A program made the translations under genes and the position numbers. A stretch of 48,743 nt of DNA from Candidatus Gastranaerophilales bacterium (GTDB lineage Bacteria; Cyanobacteriota; Vampirovibrionia; Gastranaerophilales; Gastranaerophilaceae): contig CANPZB010000008.1 in the NCBI GenBank assembly GCA_947588755.1, forward strand, positions 1 to 48,743, read 5' to 3'. Shown here piece by piece: positions 3,006 through 48,743 of the stretch; the stretch's first letter is position 1, and every line of letters begins with the position of its first letter. Below the pieces are notes generated by a model. It saw only the letters and a program-made list of their open reading frames with translations. It searched no databases and was not told where the DNA came from.

Positions 3006-4148
3006 TTAAACAGCCGCAAGAGCAGTTCTTTTATTTTTGGCTTCCAATTTACGTTTTCTTCTTCTCATCAAGTCCGTAAATGCTTCCAGTCTGGTTAAAT
3101 AACCTGCCTTACCCGTTTGTTCATCCATAATTAAAGGAAGAATAGGGATATCACAATTTTCACGCATAGCGGGAAAAATATTTTGCGACATAATTTCGGG
3201 CATACACGTAAAAGGGCTGATATGAATTATTCCGTCAATTCCTTTTTCATCGGCAAATGCCACATCTGAAACACATTCCAATGAATCACCGCCGATATCA
3301 CGCATCAAATAAGGCTTTGCCATTCTGACCGCACGCTGAAGGTGCGTTTCACCTTTTCTGAAAATTTTAGGAATAATAGCATCCTTCAAAAAACCGCTTA
3401 TGGTAAGACTTCTGCGGGTCTGAACTCCCATTTTTCCCAGTTCCTTTTCTATATCCTGATTTGAAAATGTATCGCAAACCATATAGATTTCACCCGTCAA
3501 ATCCACATGAAGAACCTCTCTTTGCGGGTCAATTTTTGTTTTGCGAATTTCTTCAAATGCGAGTTTTTTTGCTTTTTTCAACTGCTTACCGTTTTCGGCA
3601 TCTTTAATCATTTCTAATGCTTTTATATAATGTTTTTCGGCTTCACCGATTTTAATCTCTCTTGCACGGTAATATGAAAGCAAATTAACCATTTCATCAA
3701 GAATAAAGACTTTTTTTATCGCAAAAACTATACATCTTATAAAAAGTATGGGGTCATTTTTTCCGCTCAATTCTCTGAGGAAATTATACATACCTTTTAT
3801 GCCGTCATAAAGTGTAAGTTCAATATACTTTGCATCGTAACCCAAATCCGTAAGTGCATTATAAATACAATTACCGTACTCGCCCAAACGACAACAGCCT
3901 GGTGAAGAAATCATGGCAACATAATCCGCACCGCCTTCTATTGCTTCTATAAAGTTTCCCAGTATAAGTTTATACGGCAAACAAATTGCTTCGGGCGAAT
4001 GCTTTGTTCCTATTGATAATGTTTTTTTACTTGTATAAGGCGGAATGTAAGGCTCTACACCGACTTTTTTTAAAGCTGATGCCCAGGCTATATATATTGT
4101 TCCCATGTGTGGGAAAGCTACTTTTAATTTTTTCTTTTCTTTATTCAT
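3006..4148 (-). CDS. 2-hydroxyacyl-CoA dehydratase-like (BadF/HgdB-associated) Fe-S protein
   Basis: The 380-residue product resembles the cysteine-rich proteins that accompany 2-hydroxyglutaryl-CoA dehydratase and its activase (COG3580/COG3581-type). Visible signatures are HSPEAICLPYK, SSPGCCRLGEYGNC and the late PFTCMPE; these cysteines are the expected ligands of a [4Fe-4S] cluster. A lysine-rich helical stretch lies near residues 170-210. The classical ATP-dependent activase and the partner subunit are not next to it, so it may be one of the orphan forms whose substrate is unknown. It lies 9 nt after gcvPB in the same operon. Family membership is likely; activity is not established. Confidence 0.7.
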   Translation of the reverse strand: MNKEKKKLKVAFPHMGTIYIAWASALKKVGVEPYIPPYTSKKTLSIGTKHSPEAICLPYKLILGNFIEAIEGGADYVAMISSPGCCRLGEYGNCIYNALTDLGYDAKYIELTLYDGIKGMYNFLRELSGKNDPILFIRCIVFAIKKVFILDEMVNLLSYYRAREIKIGEAEKHYIKALEMIKDAENGKQLKKAKKLAFEEIRKTKIDPQREVLHVDLTGEIYMVCDTFSNQDIEKELGKMGVQTRRSLTISGFLKDAIIPKIFRKGETHLQRAVRMAKPYLMRDIGGDSLECVSDVAFADEKGIDGIIHISPFTCMPEIMSQNIFPAMRENCDIPILPLIMDEQTGKAGYLTRLEAFTDLMRRRKRKLEAKNKRTALAAV

Positions 4149-4157
4149 TTTTTCTCT

Positions 4158-5579
4158 TTACTGTTTAAAATTCAAATCGGGATGTCTTGCCGCGGTAGTT
4201 TCATCAATCTTTTTAACCGGAGTATTGTGAGGAGCCGACAAAATATCATGCGGGTCAGATTTAACTTCTTTAGCAATTTTAATCATAATTTCTGCGAATT
4301 CATCCAGTCTTTGTTTATTTTCCGACTCTGTCGGCTCTATCATCATTGCTTCATGAACAATCAGAGGGAAATAAATCGTAGGCGGATGAGTGTTATTATC
4401 CATAAGACTCTTTGCTATATTTAAAGCGGATACCCCGCACTCTTTTTGTTTGTCTGCCGATAAAACAAATTCATGCATACAGGGCTGGTTATAAGGCAAA
4501 AAATATTCCTCTCTGAGTTTCTCTTTAAGATAATTGGCATTCAAAACAGCATCTTCGGAAGCTCTTTTTAAATTTTTGCCCATCATCAGTATATAAGCAT
4601 ACGCACGAACCAACACCCCGAAGTTACCGAAATAACTTCTGACTTTTCCGATTGAATTTTTTAAATCATAATTTGCATGATATTTTTCTCCGTCAAAATC
4701 AATAATAGGAACGGGTAAAAAGTCTTTAAGTTTTTCAACCACGCCTACCGGCCCTGCACCCGGGCCACCGCCGCCATGAGGTGTTGCGAATGTTTTATGC
4801 AGATTTATATGAACAACGTCAAACCCCATTAACCTCGGATTTGTATAACCCATTATTGCATTAAAGTTTGCACCGTCATAATACAATAATGAACCGTTTT
4901 TATGCATAATTTCGGAAATTTGCAAAACATTTTCTTCAAAAATACCAAGAGTATTGGGATTAGTCATCATAATTGCAGCAACATCATCCGTTAAAAGTTC
5001 TTTTAAAGCATTTATATCCACCTGACCTTTTTCATCGGAAGCGACAGGCAAAATCTCAAAACCGCAGGCATTGGCACTTGCAGGATTTGTCCCGTGAGCC
5101 GAATCGGGAATAATAACTTTCGAACGATTTTCTCCTTTAACCTCAAAGTATTTTTTAATAATCATCATCCCCGTCAATTCACCGTGAGCACCCGCCGCAG
5201 GCTGAAGGCTCACACAGTCCATGCCCGTAATTTCTTTCAGTGCGTTTTGGAGTTTAAACATCAATTCCAAAGCTCCCTGTGAATCATCTTCATCGGCACA
5301 GGGATGAAGATTTGCAAAACCTTCCAGAGATGCAAGCAGTTCGTTAACTTTGGGATTATATTTCATAGTACAAGAACCCAGCGGATAAAAACCTTTTTCT
5401 ATACAAAAATTCAAATCCGACAGTTCTTTATAATGTCTTAAAACCTCTAATTCACTCATCTGAGGTAAATCAGGTTTTTCAAGACGCAAAAATTTTTTAT
5501 CGATAAAATCCAAATTTTCTTTTATATCAGAAATATTAATGCCTGAAGCACCGTTGCTTTTTTCAAATATAGTTTTCAT
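4158..5579 (-). CDS. gcvPB: Glycine dehydrogenase (decarboxylating) subunit 2, P-protein beta chain
   Basis: This is the PLP-binding half of the split glycine cleavage P-protein, which decarboxylates glycine and passes the aminomethyl group to lipoylated H-protein. The 473-residue length is typical. The PLP lysine is in HINLHKTFATPHGGGGPG, and SCTMKYNPKVN and DSAHGTNPASAN are also visible. The partner subunit gcvPA, gcvT and gcvH are not in the window, so the system must be split across the genome. The ATG lies 3 nt after the sigma-factor stop with no clear Shine-Dalgarno site, suggesting reinitiation after the upstream gene. Confidence 0.95.
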   Translation of the reverse strand: MKTIFEKSNGASGINISDIKENLDFIDKKFLRLEKPDLPQMSELEVLRHYKELSDLNFCIEKGFYPLGSCTMKYNPKVNELLASLEGFANLHPCADEDDSQGALELMFKLQNALKEITGMDCVSLQPAAGAHGELTGMMIIKKYFEVKGENRSKVIIPDSAHGTNPASANACGFEILPVASDEKGQVDINALKELLTDDVAAIMMTNPNTLGIFEENVLQISEIMHKNGSLLYYDGANFNAIMGYTNPRLMGFDVVHINLHKTFATPHGGGGPGAGPVGVVEKLKDFLPVPIIDFDGEKYHANYDLKNSIGKVRSYFGNFGVLVRAYAYILMMGKNLKRASEDAVLNANYLKEKLREEYFLPYNQPCMHEFVLSADKQKECGVSALNIAKSLMDNNTHPPTIYFPLIVHEAMMIEPTESENKQRLDEFAEIMIKIAKEVKSDPHDILSAPHNTPVKKIDETTAARHPDLNFKQ

Positions 5580-5582
5580 ATT

Positions 5583-6200
5583 TTATATAATCCCTTGCTT
5601 TTTCAAATCTTTTTTTATTTTGTCCAAACCTGACTGGATAATTCTTGATATTCTTGATTCCGAAATATCAAATTCTTCCGCTATTTCACGTAATTTTTTT
5701 TCTTTAAAAAACTTGTATTCAATTAGCTCTCTTTCTCTTGGCGGAAGTTTTTTTACACATTCAATAATTTCCGCTTTAAGTTCGGACAACTCAATACTTT
5801 CGTCCGGAGTCAAATCATTTGTTTTAAACTGGACAGGGACTTCGGCATCCTGCATTTCGTCAATGGAAAGTATTGTTTTGTACACTTCCATTCTTAATTG
5901 AGCGGTATCGTCATCAGAGTTTTGCCTTCTGTTTTTAAGTGTATACCATTTGTAACGGCGTCTGACTTCGTTTCTTATTGCCCACTTTATCGCCGTTGAA
6001 AGATATGCATTGTTAAATGATTCTTTCGGATTATTTTTAAACAAGATATACAGAGTATGATTACCTATGTTAATTAATTCAGGCAATTCTATAAGGTGCA
6101 TTGAGGAAAATTTTTGAAATTCCACTTTGGCTATAGTTTCTATAAATTCCCTGTAATCTCGTAAATTAGTTTGTTGTTGAATATTACGCTGTGCCGGCAT
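5583..6200 (-). CDS. Sigma-70 family RNA polymerase sigma factor (FliA/SigB-like)
   Basis: The 205-residue alternative sigma factor has a weakly conserved region 2 around residues 65-100 (including KWAIRNEVRRRYKWY) and a clear region 4 at the C-terminus. There LPPRERELIEYKFF is followed by the helix-turn-helix REIAEEFDISESRISRII that contacts the -35 element. No anti-sigma gene adjoins it. It is the first gene of the minus-strand operon and diverges from the universal stress protein gene at 6329, so the 128-bp gap carries promoters in both directions. It may be a stress or stationary-phase sigma factor; its regulon is unknown. Confidence 0.88.
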   Translation of the reverse strand: MPAQRNIQQQTNLRDYREFIETIAKVEFQKFSSMHLIELPELINIGNHTLYILFKNNPKESFNNAYLSTAIKWAIRNEVRRRYKWYTLKNRRQNSDDDTAQLRMEVYKTILSIDEMQDAEVPVQFKTNDLTPDESIELSELKAEIIECVKKLPPRERELIEYKFFKEKKLREIAEEFDISESRISRIIQSGLDKIKKDLKKQGII

Positions 6201-6328
6201 GTTACATTTTACATCCTGTTACTCGAACCAAGTCCCGTAAATATATTATCAGAAAAAAATATAGAATACCAGACAATGTAATTTCTCTTAACATAATTTA
6301 TTCTTTATAAGTCATAAAAGGAGTAACT

Positions 6329-7186
6329 ATGAAGGTATTATTTTGTACGGACGGTTCAAAAATAAGCTTTGATGCATTAAGAAATTTTGCGGACTGGTAT
6401 AAAAAGGCAGTCGTTGATATAATTTGCGTAATCGATTGGAGTTTTCTGCCCGATGAAATAAGCATTGAACAAATCGGATTTGCAGATTCCTGTGCAAATA
6501 TTGCCGACACAATACTTAATTTTGCCGAAAAAGAAGTTAAAAAACTCAATTTGGACATCGGACAAAAAATTAAACATTGCGGAAACGCTTCCGAATGTAT
6601 TTTAGAGGAAGCCGAAAAGGATTATGACCTTATAGTAATGGGTTCACACGGCAAAAAAGGAATACAAAAGTGGTTAGGTTCGGTGTCTCAAGATGTTATA
6701 AACAACACTACAAAATCGATATATGTAAGCAGACAGGAAAATTCAAGAGAAAAAATTCTGTTTACGACGGACGGAAGCAAGTTTTCACTGAATTTAATTA
6801 CCGGAATACTGCCGGATATAAATCTGGAAAACAAAAAAATACATATTTGCATGGTTAATGAAGAACCCGATTTACTGTTTCTTGAAGGAACTCTTGATAC
6901 AAATTGGCTTCTTGAGATTGAAAAACGGCAAAATCTTTTTGCCGAAAAGGCATTACGGGAAATAAATAACCTGTTTGAAAAATACGGCTGTAACATTACA
7001 GGTTCTAAAATCCTTACGGGAAATCCAGCACAAAAAATAACAGATTATGCCAAAGAAAATGGCATTGACTTAATCATAGCGGGAAATCGTAAAAAAACAA
7101 AAATGGATAAATTTTTATCTAATTCCGTAAGCAAACGTGTACTGGAAAATGTAAAAAGTGATATGCTTATTGTCAAAGAAAATTAA
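6329..7186 (+). CDS. Tandem-domain universal stress protein
   Basis: The 285-residue protein consists of two UspA folds, about 1-133 and 138-285. The first retains the ATP-binding signature GSHGKKGIQKWLGSVSQ (G-x2-G-x9-G-S). The second has a degenerate version (AGNRKKTKMDKFLSNSVS) and may not bind nucleotide. An AAAGGAG ribosome site lies 7 nt before the ATG. The gene diverges from the sigma-factor operon and is followed by ABC permeases under their own promoter, so it is probably monocistronic. Confidence 0.9.
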   Translation: MKVLFCTDGSKISFDALRNFADWYKKAVVDIICVIDWSFLPDEISIEQIGFADSCANIADTILNFAEKEVKKLNLDIGQKIKHCGNASECILEEAEKDYDLIVMGSHGKKGIQKWLGSVSQDVINNTTKSIYVSRQENSREKILFTTDGSKFSLNLITGILPDINLENKKIHICMVNEEPDLLFLEGTLDTNWLLEIEKRQNLFAEKALREINNLFEKYGCNITGSKILTGNPAQKITDYAKENGIDLIIAGNRKKTKMDKFLSNSVSKRVLENVKSDMLIVKEN

Positions 7187-8098: not shown

Positions 8099-8937
8099 AA
8101 AAATTAACGGAAAAACTAATAGTACACATAATATTAATATCGGTTTCTTTATTGTCCGTTTTTCCTTTTATATGGCTTATATCAACATCTTTGAAAGGCA
8201 ACGGAGAAAATATTTTTGCTTATCCCCCGCAGTTAATCCCTTCGGATTTTACATGGCAAAACTATGTCGGGGTATGGGATAAGGTTAATTTTATAGGATA
8301 TTTCATTAACAGCATGATTGTTGCGGGCGGAACGGTTTTGTTAAATCTTATACTTTCCGCACTTGCGGGATATCCGCTTGCCAGAATGGAATTTAAGGGC
8401 AAAAAAATAACCTTTTTTGCAATACTTGCAACAATAATGATACCTTTTCAGGCAATAATGCTTCCTGTGTATTTGATTACTCTTAAACTTAATCTTGTTG
8501 ATACGGTAAGTAATACTGCGGGATTTCTGGGACTTATAATGCCTTTTGCGGTAAGTGCCTTCGGAATATTTTTAATGAGACAGGCTTTTCTTGCCATCCC
8601 GAGAGAAATGGAAGAAGCTGCAATAGTCGACGGATGTAATGTATTTCAAGTTTTTCTGAAAGTGCTGGTTCCCATGATAAAACCGTCTCTGGCAGTTCTT
8701 GCAATATTTACTTTCATAGGTTCTTGGGGTGAATTTCTTTGGCCGAGTATTGTTTTGACAAAAGAATCTATGTACACACTTCCCGTAGGAGTAAACAATT
8801 TACAGGGAATGTTTAGTTCCAATTGGCGATTTATAGCTGCAGGCTCAATACTTTCAACAATACCGATATTAATTTTCTTTCTTTCAATGCAAAAATATTT
8901 TATATCGGGCGAAAATGAAGGGGCAATTAAAGGTTAG
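8095..8937 (+). CDS. ABC transporter permease, carbohydrate type (MalG/UgpE-like)
   Basis: The 280-residue second permease subunit has six helices and the EAA loop EEAAIVDGCNVFQVFLKVLVP. It also carries the PLARMEFKGKK segment typical of MalG-type subunits. It is translationally coupled to the preceding permease, with which it would form the membrane heterodimer. Its 3' end overlaps the convergent TPR gene by 4 nt, so the substrate-binding gene does not follow here. Confidence 0.92.
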   Translation: MKKLTEKLIVHIILISVSLLSVFPFIWLISTSLKGNGENIFAYPPQLIPSDFTWQNYVGVWDKVNFIGYFINSMIVAGGTVLLNLILSALAGYPLARMEFKGKKITFFAILATIMIPFQAIMLPVYLITLKLNLVDTVSNTAGFLGLIMPFAVSAFGIFLMRQAFLAIPREMEEAAIVDGCNVFQVFLKVLVPMIKPSLAVLAIFTFIGSWGEFLWPSIVLTKESMYTLPVGVNNLQGMFSSNWRFIAAGSILSTIPILIFFLSMQKYFISGENEGAIKG

Positions 8938-41595: not shown

Positions 41596-41667
<72 letters not shown>

Positions 41668-42298: not shown

Positions 42299-42405
42299 TT
42301 ATGCTTCAATTTTTTTGCCAGCCATAATTGAAAATATTCCGAAAGATAGAAGAACAATTACAGCAAAACCAAGTATATTGCCTATTTCAGAAGGCAAAGC
42401 CCCCC
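42299..42405 (-). other. Frameshifted C-terminal coding segment of the cbiM-like gene
   Basis: If one base of the six-G run (42405-42400 on the minus strand) is skipped, reading continues as ...AVLGALPSEIGN, then a membrane helix (ILGFAVIVLLSFGIFSIMAG) and KKIEA, stopping at 42299. This would restore a 297-residue protein ending just before a terminator. Confidence 0.65.
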
Positions 42406-43193
42406 AAAACCGCCATCTTTGCTTGCAACAATTCTGACATTGTATAAATTTGTCCTTGAGTTTGTGCCACAAAACCTTCTGACATATTTAACAGTGACCA
42501 TTCTAAGCCATCCGGTTTCGCGGATGCATAATTAGATATTACTCCCGCAAGTAAAAGTGCAAAAATTCCCATAATATAAGAGAATTTTTTACTAACACAT
42601 ATTTTATTTGTAATTGCAACCAAGATTGCCGTAAATATTCCTTCAACAACACCAATTGCAAGATGTATTCCCTGCATAAGTGATGCAAACATTGCAGGAT
42701 TTGTAACCGAGCCTGACAATGTACTTTCCGCTACTACCGCCAAAGAGCCGAGCTGCAGAGCAACAATAGATGCTAAAAATGTCGCAAATATCGGATTATT
42801 TGCAAAAGATTTTTTCATAATCGGATATGCAACAAAACAAGCTAAAAATCCCATATTGAAAATATTACAGCCTAATGCCAAAAGCCCGCCGTCTGCAAAA
42901 AATACCCCTTGAACCAAAAGAATTGTGCATATTGATAAAAATGCCACGTAAGGCCCTAAAATTGCAGATAGCAATACCGCCCCCACAATATGACCGCTTG
43001 ATGAAGTAGTCGGAATTGCAAAATTAATCATTTGTAAACAAAAAACCAAAGCCGTAAGCATAACAGTCGGCAAAATTTTGTCTTTTGTAAAATCGTTTTT
43101 TGCTTTTTTAAATGCCCAAAAGGCAGTTACACCCATTGCTGCAATCATTGGAATGCCTGTTACGGGACAAATAATTGAATTTCCTAAATGCAT
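42387..43193 (-). CDS. CbiM/NikM/LarM-type metal transporter S component, truncated by a frameshift
   Basis: The 268-residue protein is the substrate-binding membrane component of a Ni/Co ECF importer. MHLGNSIICP supplies the mature N-terminus and His2 that bind metal in this family, TSSSGHIVGAVL supplies the inner His, and YASAKPDGLEWS matches the NikN/LarN-like loop. Placement beside larC and larB indicates nickel. The last predicted helix is lost because the frame ends in a six-G run. EcfA/T-type partners are not present. AGGAG precedes the ATG, 12 nt after larC. Confidence 0.85.
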   Translation of the reverse strand: MHLGNSIICPVTGIPMIAAMGVTAFWAFKKAKNDFTKDKILPTVMLTALVFCLQMINFAIPTTSSSGHIVGAVLLSAILGPYVAFLSICTILLVQGVFFADGGLLALGCNIFNMGFLACFVAYPIMKKSFANNPIFATFLASIVALQLGSLAVVAESTLSGSVTNPAMFASLMQGIHLAIGVVEGIFTAILVAITNKICVSKKFSYIMGIFALLLAGVISNYASAKPDGLEWSLLNMSEGFVAQTQGQIYTMSELLQAKMAVLGGFAF

Positions 43194-43205: not shown

Positions 43206-43949
43206 TTAATCAAATTGTATAACTCTTAATATCGGGTTCTGATAGGGTCGTTTGCCCGCTCCGTTTCCGACTTTTTCAATAATAATACTTTCCGGCAATT
43301 TCTCGCCCGTATAAAGTGCCGCCGCTATTGCAGCACCTGTTGGGGTTATCATTTCCCCTTCGTTATTCGTAAATCTTAGCGGAAGTTTATATTTTGAGGT
43401 TATTTCACATACCGCAGGCACGGGAACATTCATTACTCCATGTTGACATTTCACAGTACCATACCCTTCGGTTAAAGTTCTAAAAAATGTTTTTTCGGGG
43501 TTTAAATCATCAAATAAAACTGCAAAACTTACAATGTCTATGATAGAATCTATTGCGCCAACTTCGTGAAAATGCACCTCGTTAATATCTTTGCCGTGAA
43601 CTTTTGCTTCCGCTTGTGCAACGATTTTAAAAATCTTTTTTGCAAGCTCTTTTGCGTTTTTTGTTGTATCTGCTTTATCAATTATAGCGTTCACGTCATC
43701 GAGATTTCTGTGTTCATGATGATGTCCATGTTCATTGTGATTATGTTCATAGTGCGGCAAAATAACATCAAAATCAGTTGCCATAATTGCATTAACTGCT
43801 TTTTTAGAAATCACATATTTAAACTCATTATTTAACCCCATTGATGACAGAGCTTTTTCAAGTTTTTCTTTACTTGCACCCAAATCCAAGAGTGCCGCTA
43901 CTGACATATCACCTGAAATTCCGTTTGCACATTCAAAAAATAAATTCAT
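43206..43949 (-). CDS. larC: Nickel-pincer cofactor nickel-insertion protein, LarC1 domain only
   Basis: LarC inserts nickel into the pincer nucleotide made by LarB and LarE. The 247-residue product has FFECANGISGDMSVAALLDLG, a His-rich loop (HYEHNHNEHGHHHEHRN), VHFHEVGAIDSIIDIV and PTGAAIAAAL. It ends RPYQNPILRVIQFD, which is where LarC1 ends in full-length proteins. The CTP-binding LarC2 part is missing and the next gene starts 12 nt later, so it cannot be hidden by a frameshift. It overlaps larB by ATGA. Confidence 0.93.
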   Translation of the reverse strand: MNLFFECANGISGDMSVAALLDLGASKEKLEKALSSMGLNNEFKYVISKKAVNAIMATDFDVILPHYEHNHNEHGHHHEHRNLDDVNAIIDKADTTKNAKELAKKIFKIVAQAEAKVHGKDINEVHFHEVGAIDSIIDIVSFAVLFDDLNPEKTFFRTLTEGYGTVKCQHGVMNVPVPAVCEITSKYKLPLRFTNNEGEMITPTGAAIAAALYTGEKLPESIIIEKVGNGAGKRPYQNPILRVIQFD

Positions 43950-44614
43950 TTCTTACACTCAATTTTTTGATTTATAAGATTTGCACTATATCCTGCACCA
44001 AATCCGTTATCTATATTAACAACAGTCATGCCTTCAGAGCAAGAATTTAACATTGTTAAAAGTGCCGAAACCCCTTTTAGGGATGTTCCGTATCCGACAG
44101 AAGTCGGAACGGCAATGACGGGAACATCAACAAGTCCTGTTATTACTCCGCCCAACGCACCTTCCATGCCGGCAATTGCAATAATTACGTTAGCTTTTCT
44201 TATATCATCAATTTTATCAAAAAGCCTGTGTATTCCTGCAATACCGATATCATAATATTTTTTTACATTGCTTCCGTAAAATTCCGCGGTCGCTGCAGCT
44301 TCTTCAGCTACCGCAATATCACCCGTCCCGCCTGTACAAATTGCAACTTCACCGATTTTTATCGGCTGATTTTCTATTAATGTCAGTACTCTCCCTTTTT
44401 CGTTGTACTTAATATCGGGAAAAATCTTCTTTAAAGTCTCATATTGTTCTTTTAATGCACGTGTTCCTAAAACATTCTGCCCGTTTTCTTTGAACACGGA
44501 AAATATTTTTATAAGTTCATCCGATGTTTTGCACTCGCAAAAAACGGCTTCCGAAAACCCTTTGCGTTTTTGTCTTTCTATATCAAGTTTTGCAAAATCA
44601 ATATCTTTATACAT
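43946..44614 (-). CDS. larB: Pyridinium-3,5-biscarboxylic acid mononucleotide synthase LarB
   Basis: LarB carboxylates nicotinic acid adenine dinucleotide, the first step toward the nickel-pincer nucleotide. The 222-residue PurE-like protein has CTGGTGDIAVAEEAAATAEFYG, DIGIAGIHRLF, IAGMEGALGGVITGL, VPTSVGYGTS and MLNSCSEGMTVVNIDNGFGA; the Cys in NSCSEG corresponds to the one that binds the pyridinium ring. It overlaps tatC by 8 nt upstream and larC by 4 nt downstream. Confidence 0.95.
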   Translation of the reverse strand: MYKDIDFAKLDIERQKRKGFSEAVFCECKTSDELIKIFSVFKENGQNVLGTRALKEQYETLKKIFPDIKYNEKGRVLTLIENQPIKIGEVAICTGGTGDIAVAEEAAATAEFYGSNVKKYYDIGIAGIHRLFDKIDDIRKANVIIAIAGMEGALGGVITGLVDVPVIAVPTSVGYGTSLKGVSALLTMLNSCSEGMTVVNIDNGFGAGYSANLINQKIECKK

Positions 44615-45314
44615 CTTTTTTCCTTTTTGAAAAAACTAATCCGAGTTCAAATAACAAATATGTCGGCAAGAATAATAAAACTTGGCTCACAATATCAGGA
44701 GGGGTGAGAAGTGCCGCTACTGTTAGGATTATGACCACAACATAAGGTCGTTTTGAACTTATTGAGTCATAGGATAATATATCCCATTTGATAAGTAAAT
44801 GAGTAACAAGCGGAATTTGAAACATCAAGCCGAAGGTAAACCCAAGCCATAGTGCAAGATTTACAATATTAGAAACTCCAAACATTGCGTTAATATTATC
44901 CTTGGCAAAACTCATCCCAAAATTAATTATTAAAGGCAAAATCAAACATATACAAAAAATAACCCCTGCGGCAAATAATAAACTTGATAAAATAATAATC
45001 GTTTTGATAAATTTTCTTTCATTTTCATACAATGCAGGCAGAATAAAATTCCATAATTGCTTTGCAATATAAGGGAAAGCTAAAATAATTGACATTAAAA
45101 GTGCGAGTTTGATTTGAAGCACAAAAACCTCTAACGGTGCAAAATAGTTGAGGGTAATATTATTATCAGAAACCAAAATTTTTATTAAAAAGTTTAATAC
45201 CTTAGGACTAATAATAAACATAAACGGCAGTAGAATTCCAACAGAAACAAAGCACTTTAATAAAGTGCTTCTTAGAGCCTCTAAATGCGAGATAAGACTT
45301 TCTTCTTTATCCAC
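44607..45314 (-). CDS. tatC: Sec-independent translocase TatC
   Basis: TatC is the receptor that recognises twin-arginine signal peptides. The 235-residue, six-helix protein begins with SLISHLEALRSTLLK. It has the LNYFAPLEVFVLQIKLAL periplasmic loop with the conserved Pro-Leu-Glu and FPYIAKQLWNFILPALYENER. It lies between tatA and larB. The two genes upstream of tatA both encode RRxF signals, so this looks like a dedicated translocase. Confidence 0.96.
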   Translation of the reverse strand: MDKEESLISHLEALRSTLLKCFVSVGILLPFMFIISPKVLNFLIKILVSDNNITLNYFAPLEVFVLQIKLALLMSIILAFPYIAKQLWNFILPALYENERKFIKTIIILSSLLFAAGVIFCICLILPLIINFGMSFAKDNINAMFGVSNIVNLALWLGFTFGLMFQIPLVTHLLIKWDILSYDSISSKRPYVVVIILTVAALLTPPDIVSQVLLFLPTYLLFELGLVFSKRKKDV

Positions 45315-45329: not shown

Positions 45330-45548
45330 TTACACTTGCGGTTCTTGAGGATTATCCTTTATTTGATATTCTTCGGGTTTTGTTTCGGCGGCAATTTCGT
45401 CAGCTTCTTTTTTTATGGTTTCTTTCGCTTTTTTAAATTCATAAGAAGCTCTGCCTAATGCTTTTGCAAGTTCCGGTATTCTTTTCCCGCCAAACAACAA
45501 TAAAAGTACAATTAAAATTAATGTAATTTCTTGTATTCCGATAGACAT
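45330..45548 (-). CDS. tatA: Twin-arginine translocase pore component TatA
   Basis: The 72-residue protein has a short membrane helix ([14 protein letters not shown]), the hinge [13 protein letters not shown], an amphipathic helix and a charged tail. There is no separate TatB in the window, so this is probably a minimal TatAC system. A GGAG ribosome site precedes the ATG; tatC follows after 15 nt. Confidence 0.95.
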
Positions 45549-45575: not shown

Positions 45576-46838
45576 TCATGAAATTTTAGCCTGTTCCTTT
45601 ATTGCAAATATTTGAATTGCATTAGATGGGCATTTTTTTGCACATTTACCGCATCCTATGCATAATGAGCCGTCAACTTTTGCAGTATCAGTAACTTCAA
45701 TAGCCGATTTAGGGCATTCAGTTTTGCAAGTGCCGCATTTTGTGCATTCGGATTCTTTTACCATAGCCATAGCAATTCTTGTGTTTTGCTTTTCTTCTAA
45801 AGTTATTCTTTTTATCGCACCTGACGGACAAACTTCTGCACATATATTGCAATCATATTTGCAAAATCCTTCGCCTTTTGAATAATCAATATGAACAGCA
45901 GGAAAATTTTCATCCGCTTTTGTTAAAATTTTATTCGGACAATTTTTAATACATAAATTACAGTTTAGACATTTGTTTGCCATTCTGTTTGTGTTTTCAC
46001 TACCTGCCGGAAGAATTATATCCCGAACTTTTTTTACAAAATTCTTGCCGATTTCAATACCTGCTTTTACGGCTCCGCCAAGAACTACAAGTGTTGTTGC
46101 GGCAATTATGAAATTGCGGCGTTTCAAACTAAATTTTACGGGCTGAGTACCAAATTTTATTGCATTTTTTTTGCATTCTCCAAGGCATTTAAGGCATTTT
46201 ATACAAATTTCATTATCAACACATTTTTCTTTGTGGTCGATGCATCCCGAGGGGCAAGACTTTGCACAAAGTCCGCAAGAAATGCAAGTATCTTTATCAA
46301 TATAAATTTTATTTAATGAAACTTTGGAAATCAGTCCCAAAACTGCACCGACAGGACAAATATTTGTACAAAAATAACGATTTTTGAAAAATACCAATGC
46401 CAAAACTAAAAATGTAAAAATTAATCCGACAATAGTTAAACTTACTGCTGAGCCAAACATTGTGTAAGGGTCGAGATATCGAATTAACAGGGCAGAACCG
46501 CCGATTAATGTGCCAAAAGTTATAGCTGCGATAAAGTATTTAACGGGTAAATTCTTCTGTAGAGTATTTTTCTTTTTGAATAAAAGTGCACAAAATTCCT
46601 GCAAAATTCCAAAAGGACAAATTGTTGAGCAGTAAAATCTGCCAAACAACAATGTTAAAACTAAAATTCCCGCAATAATTCCAATTGCAATCCAGGAAAA
46701 ATCAAAAATTACACGCTGTAAAACCGCAGCGAATTGCAAGTCCATAATATGAACGGGATATATTCCCAAAATGGCAAGAACTGACAAACTCCCGACAATT
46801 CCTGCTATAGTTAATCTGATTAAATAACTTTTTTTCAT
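45576..46838 (-). CDS. NapH-NapG-like fusion: membrane ferredoxin with internal twin-arginine segment
   Basis: The 420-residue protein divides into two. Residues 1-230 are NapH-like: four helices (about 10-30, 50-67, 100-120, 131-150), two CxxxCP motifs (C70/C74, C157/C161) and two cytoplasmic [4Fe-4S] motifs (C185-C195, C212-C222). Residues 237-260 read SLKRRNFIIAATTLVVLGGA, a Tat-type signal (R240 R241). After it come four more [4Fe-4S] motifs (C290-C300, C326-C337, C365-C375, C393-C403), matching NapG. NapGH moves electrons from quinol to the periplasm; a similar flow is likely here. Confidence 0.88.
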   Translation of the reverse strand: MKKSYLIRLTIAGIVGSLSVLAILGIYPVHIMDLQFAAVLQRVIFDFSWIAIGIIAGILVLTLLFGRFYCSTICPFGILQEFCALLFKKKNTLQKNLPVKYFIAAITFGTLIGGSALLIRYLDPYTMFGSAVSLTIVGLIFTFLVLALVFFKNRYFCTNICPVGAVLGLISKVSLNKIYIDKDTCISCGLCAKSCPSGCIDHKEKCVDNEICIKCLKCLGECKKNAIKFGTQPVKFSLKRRNFIIAATTLVVLGGAVKAGIEIGKNFVKKVRDIILPAGSENTNRMANKCLNCNLCIKNCPNKILTKADENFPAVHIDYSKGEGFCKYDCNICAEVCPSGAIKRITLEEKQNTRIAMAMVKESECTKCGTCKTECPKSAIEVTDTAKVDGSLCIGCGKCAKKCPSNAIQIFAIKEQAKIS

Positions 46839-46844
46839 TTATCT

Positions 46845-48065
46845 TTAACCTGCGGTTTTATTGTATTCATCATTTATTTTTGTAAGCAATGTCGGTATAT
46901 CTAACGATTGAGGACAGTTTTTGCTGCACAGACCGCATTTGATACATTTATCCGCTTTTTCATCATCCGCAAGTGTTTCGTAATAAATCCCGAATAACAT
47001 TTTGTTATTCGTAACTTTATATTGGTTATAAAGTGCAAATAAAGCGGGAATATTTATACCTCTGGGGCAGACTTTCATGCAGTATTTGCAGGCGGTGCAA
47101 TTAATTTCGCCTTGAGATTGGATGATTTTAGCAATTTCATCAGCCAGCTTTTCTTCTTTTTCATCCATATCTTTGTAATCAATAAATGTTTGGATATTTT
47201 CTTTAACCTGTTGAAGATTGCTCATGCCTGAAAGAACGGTTACAACATTATCTCTGCTTGCAGCCCATCTTAACCCGAATGCCGCAGGAGAGTTATCGGA
47301 ATTTTCTTTTAATTTTTTAAGTGCTTTATCGCTCAAATTAACCAAGCCGCCGCCTCTTAAAGGTTCCATTACAGTAACGGGAATACCTTGTGCTTGAACA
47401 ATATCATACTGCTCGTGTGCTTTTACAACATCCCAGTCAAGATAATTTACTTGAAGCTGTGCAAAGTCCCATTCGTAATCTTTTACAACCTCTCTTAGGA
47501 TTTCGGGAGTCCCATGGAAAGAAAATCCCAAGTATTTAATCTTGCCTTCCTCTTTAAGCTTAGCAAGTTCTTCAACCATGTGAACATCTCTATATGTGCC
47601 TACAGAATTTTTGTTAATATTGTGGCACATATAAAAATCAAAGTATTCAACCTGACATTTTTTGAGTTGTTCATTAAAGATTTTTCTAACGTCTTGGGGT
47701 GTATTCATTTTATAAATCGGGCTTTTATCCGCAAGCATAAAATCTTCACGTTTAAATCTTTTTAAGGATTTCCCGATTGCAAACTCTGATTTAGAATCCA
47801 CATACATATATGCCGTATCAAAATAATTTGCACCGTGCTCCATACAGTAATCAACCATTCTATCCAGTTCTTGCTGGTCGATTTCATCACCTTTCATCGG
47901 TAATCTCATACAACCAAGCCCCAGTAATGGTATTGTAATATCTTTATATTTCCTTCTTGCAACTTGATTTTCCGATTTAATAAGCTCTTTTTTGCCGCAA
48001 CCTGCAAGTAAAGCAGTACCACCTATTGCAAGTGCCGAATTAATAATAAATTCCCGTCTTTTCAT
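46845..48065 (-). CDS. Tat-exported lipoprotein aldo/keto reductase with two ferredoxin motifs
   Basis: The 406-residue protein starts MKRREFIINSALAIGG...LLAGC: twin arginines at 3-4 and a lipobox Cys23. An aldo/keto reductase barrel follows with the tetrad Asp and Tyr (NYFDTAYMY), Lys (LADKSP) and His (MCHNI). The C-terminus has two [4Fe-4S] motifs, CTACKYCMKVCP and CIKCGLCSKNCP. Export of such an enzyme is unusual because NAD(P)H is not available outside the cytoplasm; electrons may come from the NapHG-like protein encoded 6 nt downstream. TGAGGT precedes the ATG. Confidence 0.9.
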   Translation of the reverse strand: MKRREFIINSALAIGGTALLAGCGKKELIKSENQVARRKYKDITIPLLGLGCMRLPMKGDEIDQQELDRMVDYCMEHGANYFDTAYMYVDSKSEFAIGKSLKRFKREDFMLADKSPIYKMNTPQDVRKIFNEQLKKCQVEYFDFYMCHNINKNSVGTYRDVHMVEELAKLKEEGKIKYLGFSFHGTPEILREVVKDYEWDFAQLQVNYLDWDVVKAHEQYDIVQAQGIPVTVMEPLRGGGLVNLSDKALKKLKENSDNSPAAFGLRWAASRDNVVTVLSGMSNLQQVKENIQTFIDYKDMDEKEEKLADEIAKIIQSQGEINCTACKYCMKVCPRGINIPALFALYNQYKVTNNKMLFGIYYETLADDEKADKCIKCGLCSKNCPQSLDIPTLLTKINDEYNKTAG

Positions 48066-48135: not shown

Positions 48136-48743
48136 ATGAAATTAGAGAAATTAAAAGAATATTTACAAAGTTTAGATAGTGTTGCCGTGGCTTTTTCATC
48201 GGGAGTTGATTCCACATTTTTATTGAAAATCGCACACGAAGTTCTAAAACATAATGTTATTGCAGTTACGATAAAATCCTGCTTATTTCCCGATAGAGAA
48301 CTAAGAGAAGCAATTGAGTTTTGTAAAAAAGACAATATAAAACACATTATTATAGAAATTGATGAATTGAACATCGAAGGCTTTTGCGAAAATCCGACTA
48401 ACCGCTGCTATTTATGTAAAAAAGAACTGTTTAAAAAGATATTGGAAGTAGCCCAAGCCCATAATATAAAAAATGTTATTGAAGGCTCAAACATTGATGA
48501 TGATGGCGACTATCGCCCCGGAATGCAAGCAATAAAAGAACTTAATATAAAAAGCCCTCTGCGATTTGCTAAACTGAATAAAAATGAAATAAGAACTTTA
48601 TCAAAGCAATATAATTTGCCTACTTTCGATAAGCCGTCATTTGCCTGTCTTGCTTCCCGATTTGTCTATGGAGAAAAAATAACGGAAGAAAAGTTGAAAA
48701 TGGTTGATAAAGCTGAACAATTACTTTTAAATTTAGGATTTTA
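48136..48743 (+). CDS. larE: ATP-dependent sacrificial sulfur transferase LarE (partial)
   Basis: LarE adenylates the LarB product and adds sulfur, turning its carboxylates into thiocarboxylates. The visible 202 residues include the PP-loop VAFSSGVDSTFLLK, NRCYLCKKELF, EGSNIDDDGDYRPGM and KPSFACLASRF. The Cys in ACLASR matches the position used as sulfur donor in the sacrificial class. The CxxC could instead point to an Fe-S class, so the mechanism is open. The gene diverges from the lar/tat operon and runs off the right edge, lacking roughly the last 60-70 residues. Confidence 0.94.
   Translation, partial: MKLEKLKEYLQSLDSVAVAFSSGVDSTFLLKIAHEVLKHNVIAVTIKSCLFPDRELREAIEFCKKDNIKHIIIEIDELNIEGFCENPTNRCYLCKKELFKKILEVAQAHNIKNVIEGSNIDDDGDYRPGMQAIKELNIKSPLRFAKLNKNEIRTLSKQYNLPTFDKPSFACLASRFVYGEKITEEKLKMVDKAEQLLLNLGF

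Follow-up and report, generated by a model that had tools for sequence, protein, structure and literature searches.

The window analysed here is the whole 48,743-nt stretch of contig CANPZB010000008.1 from the gut bacterium Candidatus Gastranaerophilales bacterium (assembly GCA_947588755.1). Its minus strand contains a gene (45576..46838) for a 420-residue polyferredoxin, identified from the open reading frame, Pfam, NCBIfam, relatives and an alignment, in which a NapH-like half and a NapG-like half are fused. The gene starts with ATG and has exactly the extent given in a preliminary description of the window. The single chain with an internal twin-arginine (RR) signal that was reported there is real, and its motifs can be read directly from the 420-aa frame.

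The NapH-like half (residues 1-230; 46149..46838), delimited by Pfam, NCBIfam, hydrophobicity and AF2 helices, contains four transmembrane segments (TM), two CxxxCP pairs (C70/C74 and C157/C161) and two 4Fe-4S motifs on the cytoplasmic side (C185-C195 and C212-C222). FSLKRRNF follows at residues 236-243, with RR at 240-241 and a hydrophobic stretch immediately behind it, and the signal SLKRRNF together with the weakly hydrophobic TM5 spans residues 237-265 (46044..46130). The NapG-like domain (residues 285-410; 45609..45986), delimited by Pfam, NCBIfam and the alignment, contains four 4Fe-4S motifs (C290-300, C326-337, C365-375 and C393-403). The six [4Fe-4S] motifs of the preliminary description are thus present, two on the cytoplasmic side and four later in the chain, but the two CxxxCP pairs could, judging from their sequence, bind one more cluster, so that six clusters may be seven.

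The fusion is flanked by genes that are closely packed on the same strand. An aldo/keto reductase (AKR) gene (46845..48065) lies 6 bp upstream, and tatA (45330..45548; Pfam TatA_B_E, 58 bits), tatC (44607..45314; TIGR00945, 165 bits, cut-off 133), larB for nickel-pincer nucleotide (NPN) cofactor biosynthesis (43946..44614; NF033503, 284 bits, cut-off 175), larC1 (43206..43949; TIGR00299, 188 bits, cut-off 90) and a CbiM plus PDGLE gene for a metal uptake S component of the nickel/cobalt type (42387..43193; PF01891, 147 bits; PF13190, 44 bits) follow in this order downstream, with all gaps at most 27 bp or replaced by overlaps. The larE gene (48136..48743; TIGR00268, 268 bits, cut-off 150) diverges on the plus strand and is cut by the window end; like LarB and LarC1, its product exceeds the NCBIfam cut-off. 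Rfam reported no riboswitch near the Lar and CbiM genes, only tRNA. A tRNA gene (41596-41667, plus strand) separates the CbiM gene from one resembling a sodium/amino-acid symporter gene.

The AKR (PF00248, 158 bits) is the only window protein in which a scan found an N-terminal Tat signal (MKRREF). It also has a lipobox-like LAGC and two C-terminal 4Fe-4S motifs. Its catalytic tetrad, D83, Y88, K114 and H148, is complete and invariant, and the barrel of the modelled protein matches those of AKR11C1 and AKR14A1.

Identity and topology of the fusion

Pfam assigns Fer4_5 to the first half of the fusion and detects several Fer4 models. The NapH profile PRK09477 aligns with residues 16-232 at 92 bits (curated cut-off 234) and the NapH/MauN model TIGR02163 scores 88 bits (cut-off 213); for the second half, the NapG profile PRK09476 scores 50 bits (cut-off 269) and TIGR00397 42 bits (cut-off 179). 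The preliminary description had the two parts reproduce NapH and NapG. Profiles of both do match, but all of them far below their curated cut-offs, and the halves are therefore called NapH-like and NapG-like, being related to the two proteins but not established as either of them. A Foldseek search with the modelled fusion returned nothing beyond generic ferredoxin matches with low TM-scores.

These scores bear on a first alternative, namely that the fusion is a classic quinol dehydrogenase of the NapGH type, taking electrons from menaquinol and handing them to a reductase in the periplasm. The first half does score best with NapH, the second half matches NapG among other models, and PMC5449189 describes NapGH of E. 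coli and Wolinella as a quinol dehydrogenase. We nevertheless regard a quinol dehydrogenase as unlikely, given the distance from both sets of cut-offs and a neighbourhood of the fusion that contains no nitrate reductase (nap) genes. Moreover, Gastranaerophilales are reported to be obligate fermenters with neither aerobic nor anaerobic respiration (PMC4040986), and for this reason reduced ferredoxin would be a likelier electron donor than quinol.

NapH-NapG fusions form a known class, found by bioinformatics and named "polyferredoxin" by Tooke et al. (2017, eLife; PMC5449189). According to that paper, the MLMS-1 polyferredoxin Q1NSB0 has five TM with RR before TM5, its TM1-4 are inserted by Sec and its TM5 by Tat, and reporter fusions show that it needs both pathways. 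The design rule given there is a weakly hydrophobic last TM with positive charges after it. Does the window fusion follow this rule? AF2 helices and hydrophobicity place four hydrophobic segments, an even number, before RR and one TM after it. In an alignment of 26 fusions with 41-85% identity to the window protein, R240-R241 is invariant (26/26), and each protein has 3-6 K/R right after TM5. On average TM5 is the least hydrophobic segment, with a Kyte-Doolittle mean of 1.86 over the 26 proteins compared with 2.63, 2.76, 1.99 and 2.56 for TM1-4 (Tooke et al. used the dG server instead), although it is the lowest segment in only 15 of the 26.

The weak TM5, the charges behind it and the homologue experiments together support well the dual-targeting topology that the preliminary description predicted. 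Dual Sec/Tat insertion of the window fusion is probably right by analogy with Q1NSB0, the homologue in which others demonstrated it, but it belongs to a kind already published. A literature search for the Tat system of Gastranaerophilales found no paper. The continuous wire across the membrane that was also proposed for the six motifs is one that we infer. The fusion and its dual targeting have been described before; what is new is the operon context, which places a fusion together with its own translocase and with nickel-pincer genes but no LarA.

Alternatively, the RR stretch may not be a Tat signal, and the C-terminal domain would then stay in the cytoplasm, with a fifth helix, Sec-inserted or uninserted, joining two ferredoxin domains. 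Export is not provable by sequence alone, which leaves some room for this view, but the invariance of RR, the tatAC genes in the operon, the loss of TatC along with the fusion and the homologue whose Sec/Tat insertion is published (PMC5449189) render a cytoplasmic domain very improbable.

Distribution, co-occurrence and decay of the module

A search for the fusion in related genomes, suggested in the preliminary description, found it in 51 of 146 Gastranaerophilales genomes, with a few copies broken, and further fusion-bearing contigs carry the labels Candidatus Gastranaerophilales, Elusimicrobiales and Alphaproteobacteria. Because so many genomes of the order share the fusion and R240-R241 is invariant across the alignment, the fusion is not an assembly accident. 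Fission at the NapH/NapG junction was not seen among the fusion loci of relatives. The gene is broken inside the NapH half, not at the junction, in G140, bears an internal deletion in G069 and is cut by contig ends in G122. A NapH-like paralogue that lacks the NapG half and is 35% identical to the fusion occurs elsewhere (L050, G125:C1:8029-8700).

The gene order is widely retained. Among 77 contig loci with room for neighbours, AKR is directly upstream of the fusion in 65, and TatA and TatC are downstream in 75 and 73, respectively. Across the 146 genomes, the fusion occurs in 51, TatC in 54 and LarC over its cut-off in 45. Fusion and TatC are both present in 49 genomes and both absent from 90, with two genomes having the fusion only and five TatC only; TatC is thus found in 49/51 fusion genomes versus 5/95 others. 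The two fusion genomes without TatC, G068 and G069, both have degraded modules. In most fusion-carrying genomes, the operon tatAC is the only folded-protein export machine found. A further set of 11 genomes, mostly with other group labels, has exactly one TatC each, and their loci show tatC beside the fusion. Fisher p values for these co-occurrences are tiny, but they ignore kinship and are inflated by related genomes. Nor is co-loss independent evidence for each gene, since one deletion can remove adjacent genes together.

Two module types can be distinguished. In type B, found in nine genomes, the fusion shows 41-45% identity and the loci hold AKR, fusion, TatA and TatC without Lar or CbiM genes. 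LarC exceeds its cut-off in 39/42 type-A genomes, 0/9 type-B genomes and 6/95 genomes without the fusion. The type-A genomes without LarC are G068, G069 and G134, and the contig of G134 ends within the module. In four of the six fusion-less genomes with LarC the protein is full-length; the other two, G041 and G112, encode LarC1 next to module remains. The AKRs differ as well at a few positions, with HN after the catalytic His and F183 in type A and HC and H183 in type B. These differences are no proof of NPN use, because the AKR of G148 carries type-A residues and LarC was not found in the G148 genome.

Presence of the module varies inside several genera, and stages of its decay are visible. 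Seven genomes (G001, G054, G086, G091, G112, G124 and G145) have AKR pseudogenes or fragments and neither fusion nor Tat. In G112, LarB, LarC, CbiM and LarE are intact, the AKR is broken and the fusion and Tat are gone, and G119 has a type-A AKR beside CbiM alone. The joints of chimeric reading frames sit at short shared words, such as FKKAK between TatA and CbiM in G069, as expected from deletions at short repeats, with assembly error as the alternative. Three joints occur in one locus of G069 (L044, G069:C8:9000-18000, at 4028-6485), where the AKR has no Tat signal and no Fe-S part, the fusion has lost, internally and in frame, its Tat signal and three Fe-S motifs, and TatA runs in frame into CbiM at the common FKKAK. 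A short insert, LKRLACVSGSC..THSRHVPY, is common to L048 (G091; near 3700 and 4800) and L141 (G041; near 8900), where it breaks an AKR relic and sits within CbiM; it is perhaps a small mobile element.

The nickel-pincer genes and a proposed function of the operon

Which enzyme uses the product of the lar genes? No protein exceeded the LarA cut-off (PF09861) in any of the 146 Gastranaerophilales genomes or the 11 further genomes. To our knowledge, LarA is the sole enzyme family known to employ NPN. About 15% of the genomes analysed in an earlier study, many cyanobacteria included, have larB, larC and larE but no larA; the NPN user of larA-less genomes was left there as an open question, and users other than LarA probably exist (PMC11796402). 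In the module-linked LarC of Gastranaerophilales the LarC2 domain is absent, PF01969 matching only over about positions 1-235 of 375, and the cofactor may consequently differ from NPN. This LarC1-only form is seen in the window (43206-43949) and in about 38 relatives, whereas the LarC of locus L126 has a LarC2 domain. Elsewhere in the phylum, G220 and G265 encode LarC1 and LarC2 in two adjacent reading frames.

Gut Alphaproteobacteria have the same gene set as the Gastranaerophilales operon in rearranged form. Three loci labelled Alphaproteobacteria or proteobacterium hold, in this order, AKR, flavodoxin, LarB, full-length LarC, LarE, further genes, the fusion, TatA and TatC. Among genomes with the alphaproteobacterial label, LarC is found in 4/5 with AKR and 0/3 without it. 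In fusion loci without AKR, a flavodoxin or FMN reductase gene often adjoins the fusion, which indicates that partners other than the AKR are possible and that the wire may serve further reductases. Genes of this kind lie upstream or downstream of the fusion in L126, L129 and L136, and another lies in L044 (2036-3194); some have N-terminal signals, one of them a Tat signal (L129:8207-8947). A gene that resembles a nickel permease by its GPDH motif (L126:4602-5120) is given no weight as evidence, since no Pfam, NCBIfam or PDB match backs it.

The lar genes might be chance neighbours that the history of the operon left beside the module, serving an unrelated enzyme while Tat, AKR and fusion work without NPN. 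This is possible, although we would not call it probable. Type-B modules do consist of AKR, fusion, TatA and TatC without Lar genes, the AKR tetrad and fold are normal, and G112 kept its Lar genes after the rest was lost. Chance fits less well with how closely LarC follows the type-A module (39/42 genomes), with the reordered recurrence of the gene set under the alphaproteobacterial label and with the absence of LarA as an NPN user. In the type-A operon, NPN probably serves one of the exported proteins as a cofactor. The obvious first candidate is the AKR, because among the operon products it is the catalytic one and because LarC tracks the AKR, not the fusion, in other groups; its position beside CbiM alone in G119 points the same way. 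Against this stand its ordinary tetrad and fold, the type-B and G148 AKRs without LarC, and the lar genes of G112 without an intact AKR. NPN use by the AKR is thus a guess, albeit a testable one.

From the joint evidence of sequence and gene context, we consider it rather probable that a polyferredoxin wire inserted by both Sec and Tat feeds a Tat-exported AKR, within a self-contained operon whose type-A form would add NPN as the probable cofactor of one exported protein. Sec would insert the four helices of the fusion, leaving both ends in the cytoplasm, where the ferredoxin part would end directly before the RR signal. The C-terminal domain would fold with its clusters and cross through the TatAC encoded by the neighbouring genes, and TM5 would serve as the anchor. 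Electrons would pass from the cytoplasmic ferredoxin part via the CxxxCP region and the four external clusters to the Fe-S domain of the AKR. The AKR may then reduce a hypothetical carbonyl compound outside the cytoplasm, and this reduction would serve as an electron sink. The operon would thereby supply two Tat substrates and their translocase, to which the type-A form adds the NPN genes. In a tentative and rather doubtful extension, the type-A AKR would be a non-LarA enzyme with NPN, or a LarC2-less variant of it, bound as its hydride carrier in the extracytoplasmic space, which offers no NADPH. The AKR would receive the cofactor in the cytoplasm, its own TatAC would then move the folded enzyme out, and the NapH-NapG-like wire would reduce it again.

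The operon context suggests an enzyme in the periplasm that is fed with electrons and uses a rare nickel cofactor. The fusion would be one more naturally occurring protein assembled by two translocases, and Tat genes within the operon make it easier to view how substrate and machine are inherited together. In addition, LarA-less lar genes are linked to a single small redox module in a sister lineage of cyanobacteria, and this narrows the candidates for the NPN user to a short list. For cyanobacteria themselves the AKR does not settle the matter, as it is rare and distant there.

Comparison with known systems

The window fusion shares with Q1NSB0 the NapH-NapG fusion, five TM, RR before TM5, a weak TM5 with positive charges behind it and four 4Fe-4S motifs after it. 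Q1NSB0 has seven clusters, three cytoplasmic and four external, whereas the window fusion has two plus four clear motifs, to which CxxxCP could add one. The passages of PMC5449189 considered here make no mention of a lar or tatAC operon around Q1NSB0, and such an operon surrounds the window fusion. With NapH and NapG of nitrate respiration, the fusion has in common the domain plan, the topology and the Tat signal on the NapG part; those proteins, however, are encoded by two separate genes, and the window has one gene with sub-cut-off scores. The actinobacterial Rieske protein Sco2149, another dual Sec/Tat substrate, likewise has an internal Tat signal before its last TM and a cofactor domain outside, but it differs from the fusion in its unrelated Rieske fold and its three TM. 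Finally, the window shares LarB, LarC1, LarE and a CbiM-type uptake gene with the Lar system (LarA-LarB-LarC-LarE). That system includes LarA and LarC2, whereas the window operon has neither and its lar genes are tied to Tat, AKR and polyferredoxin.
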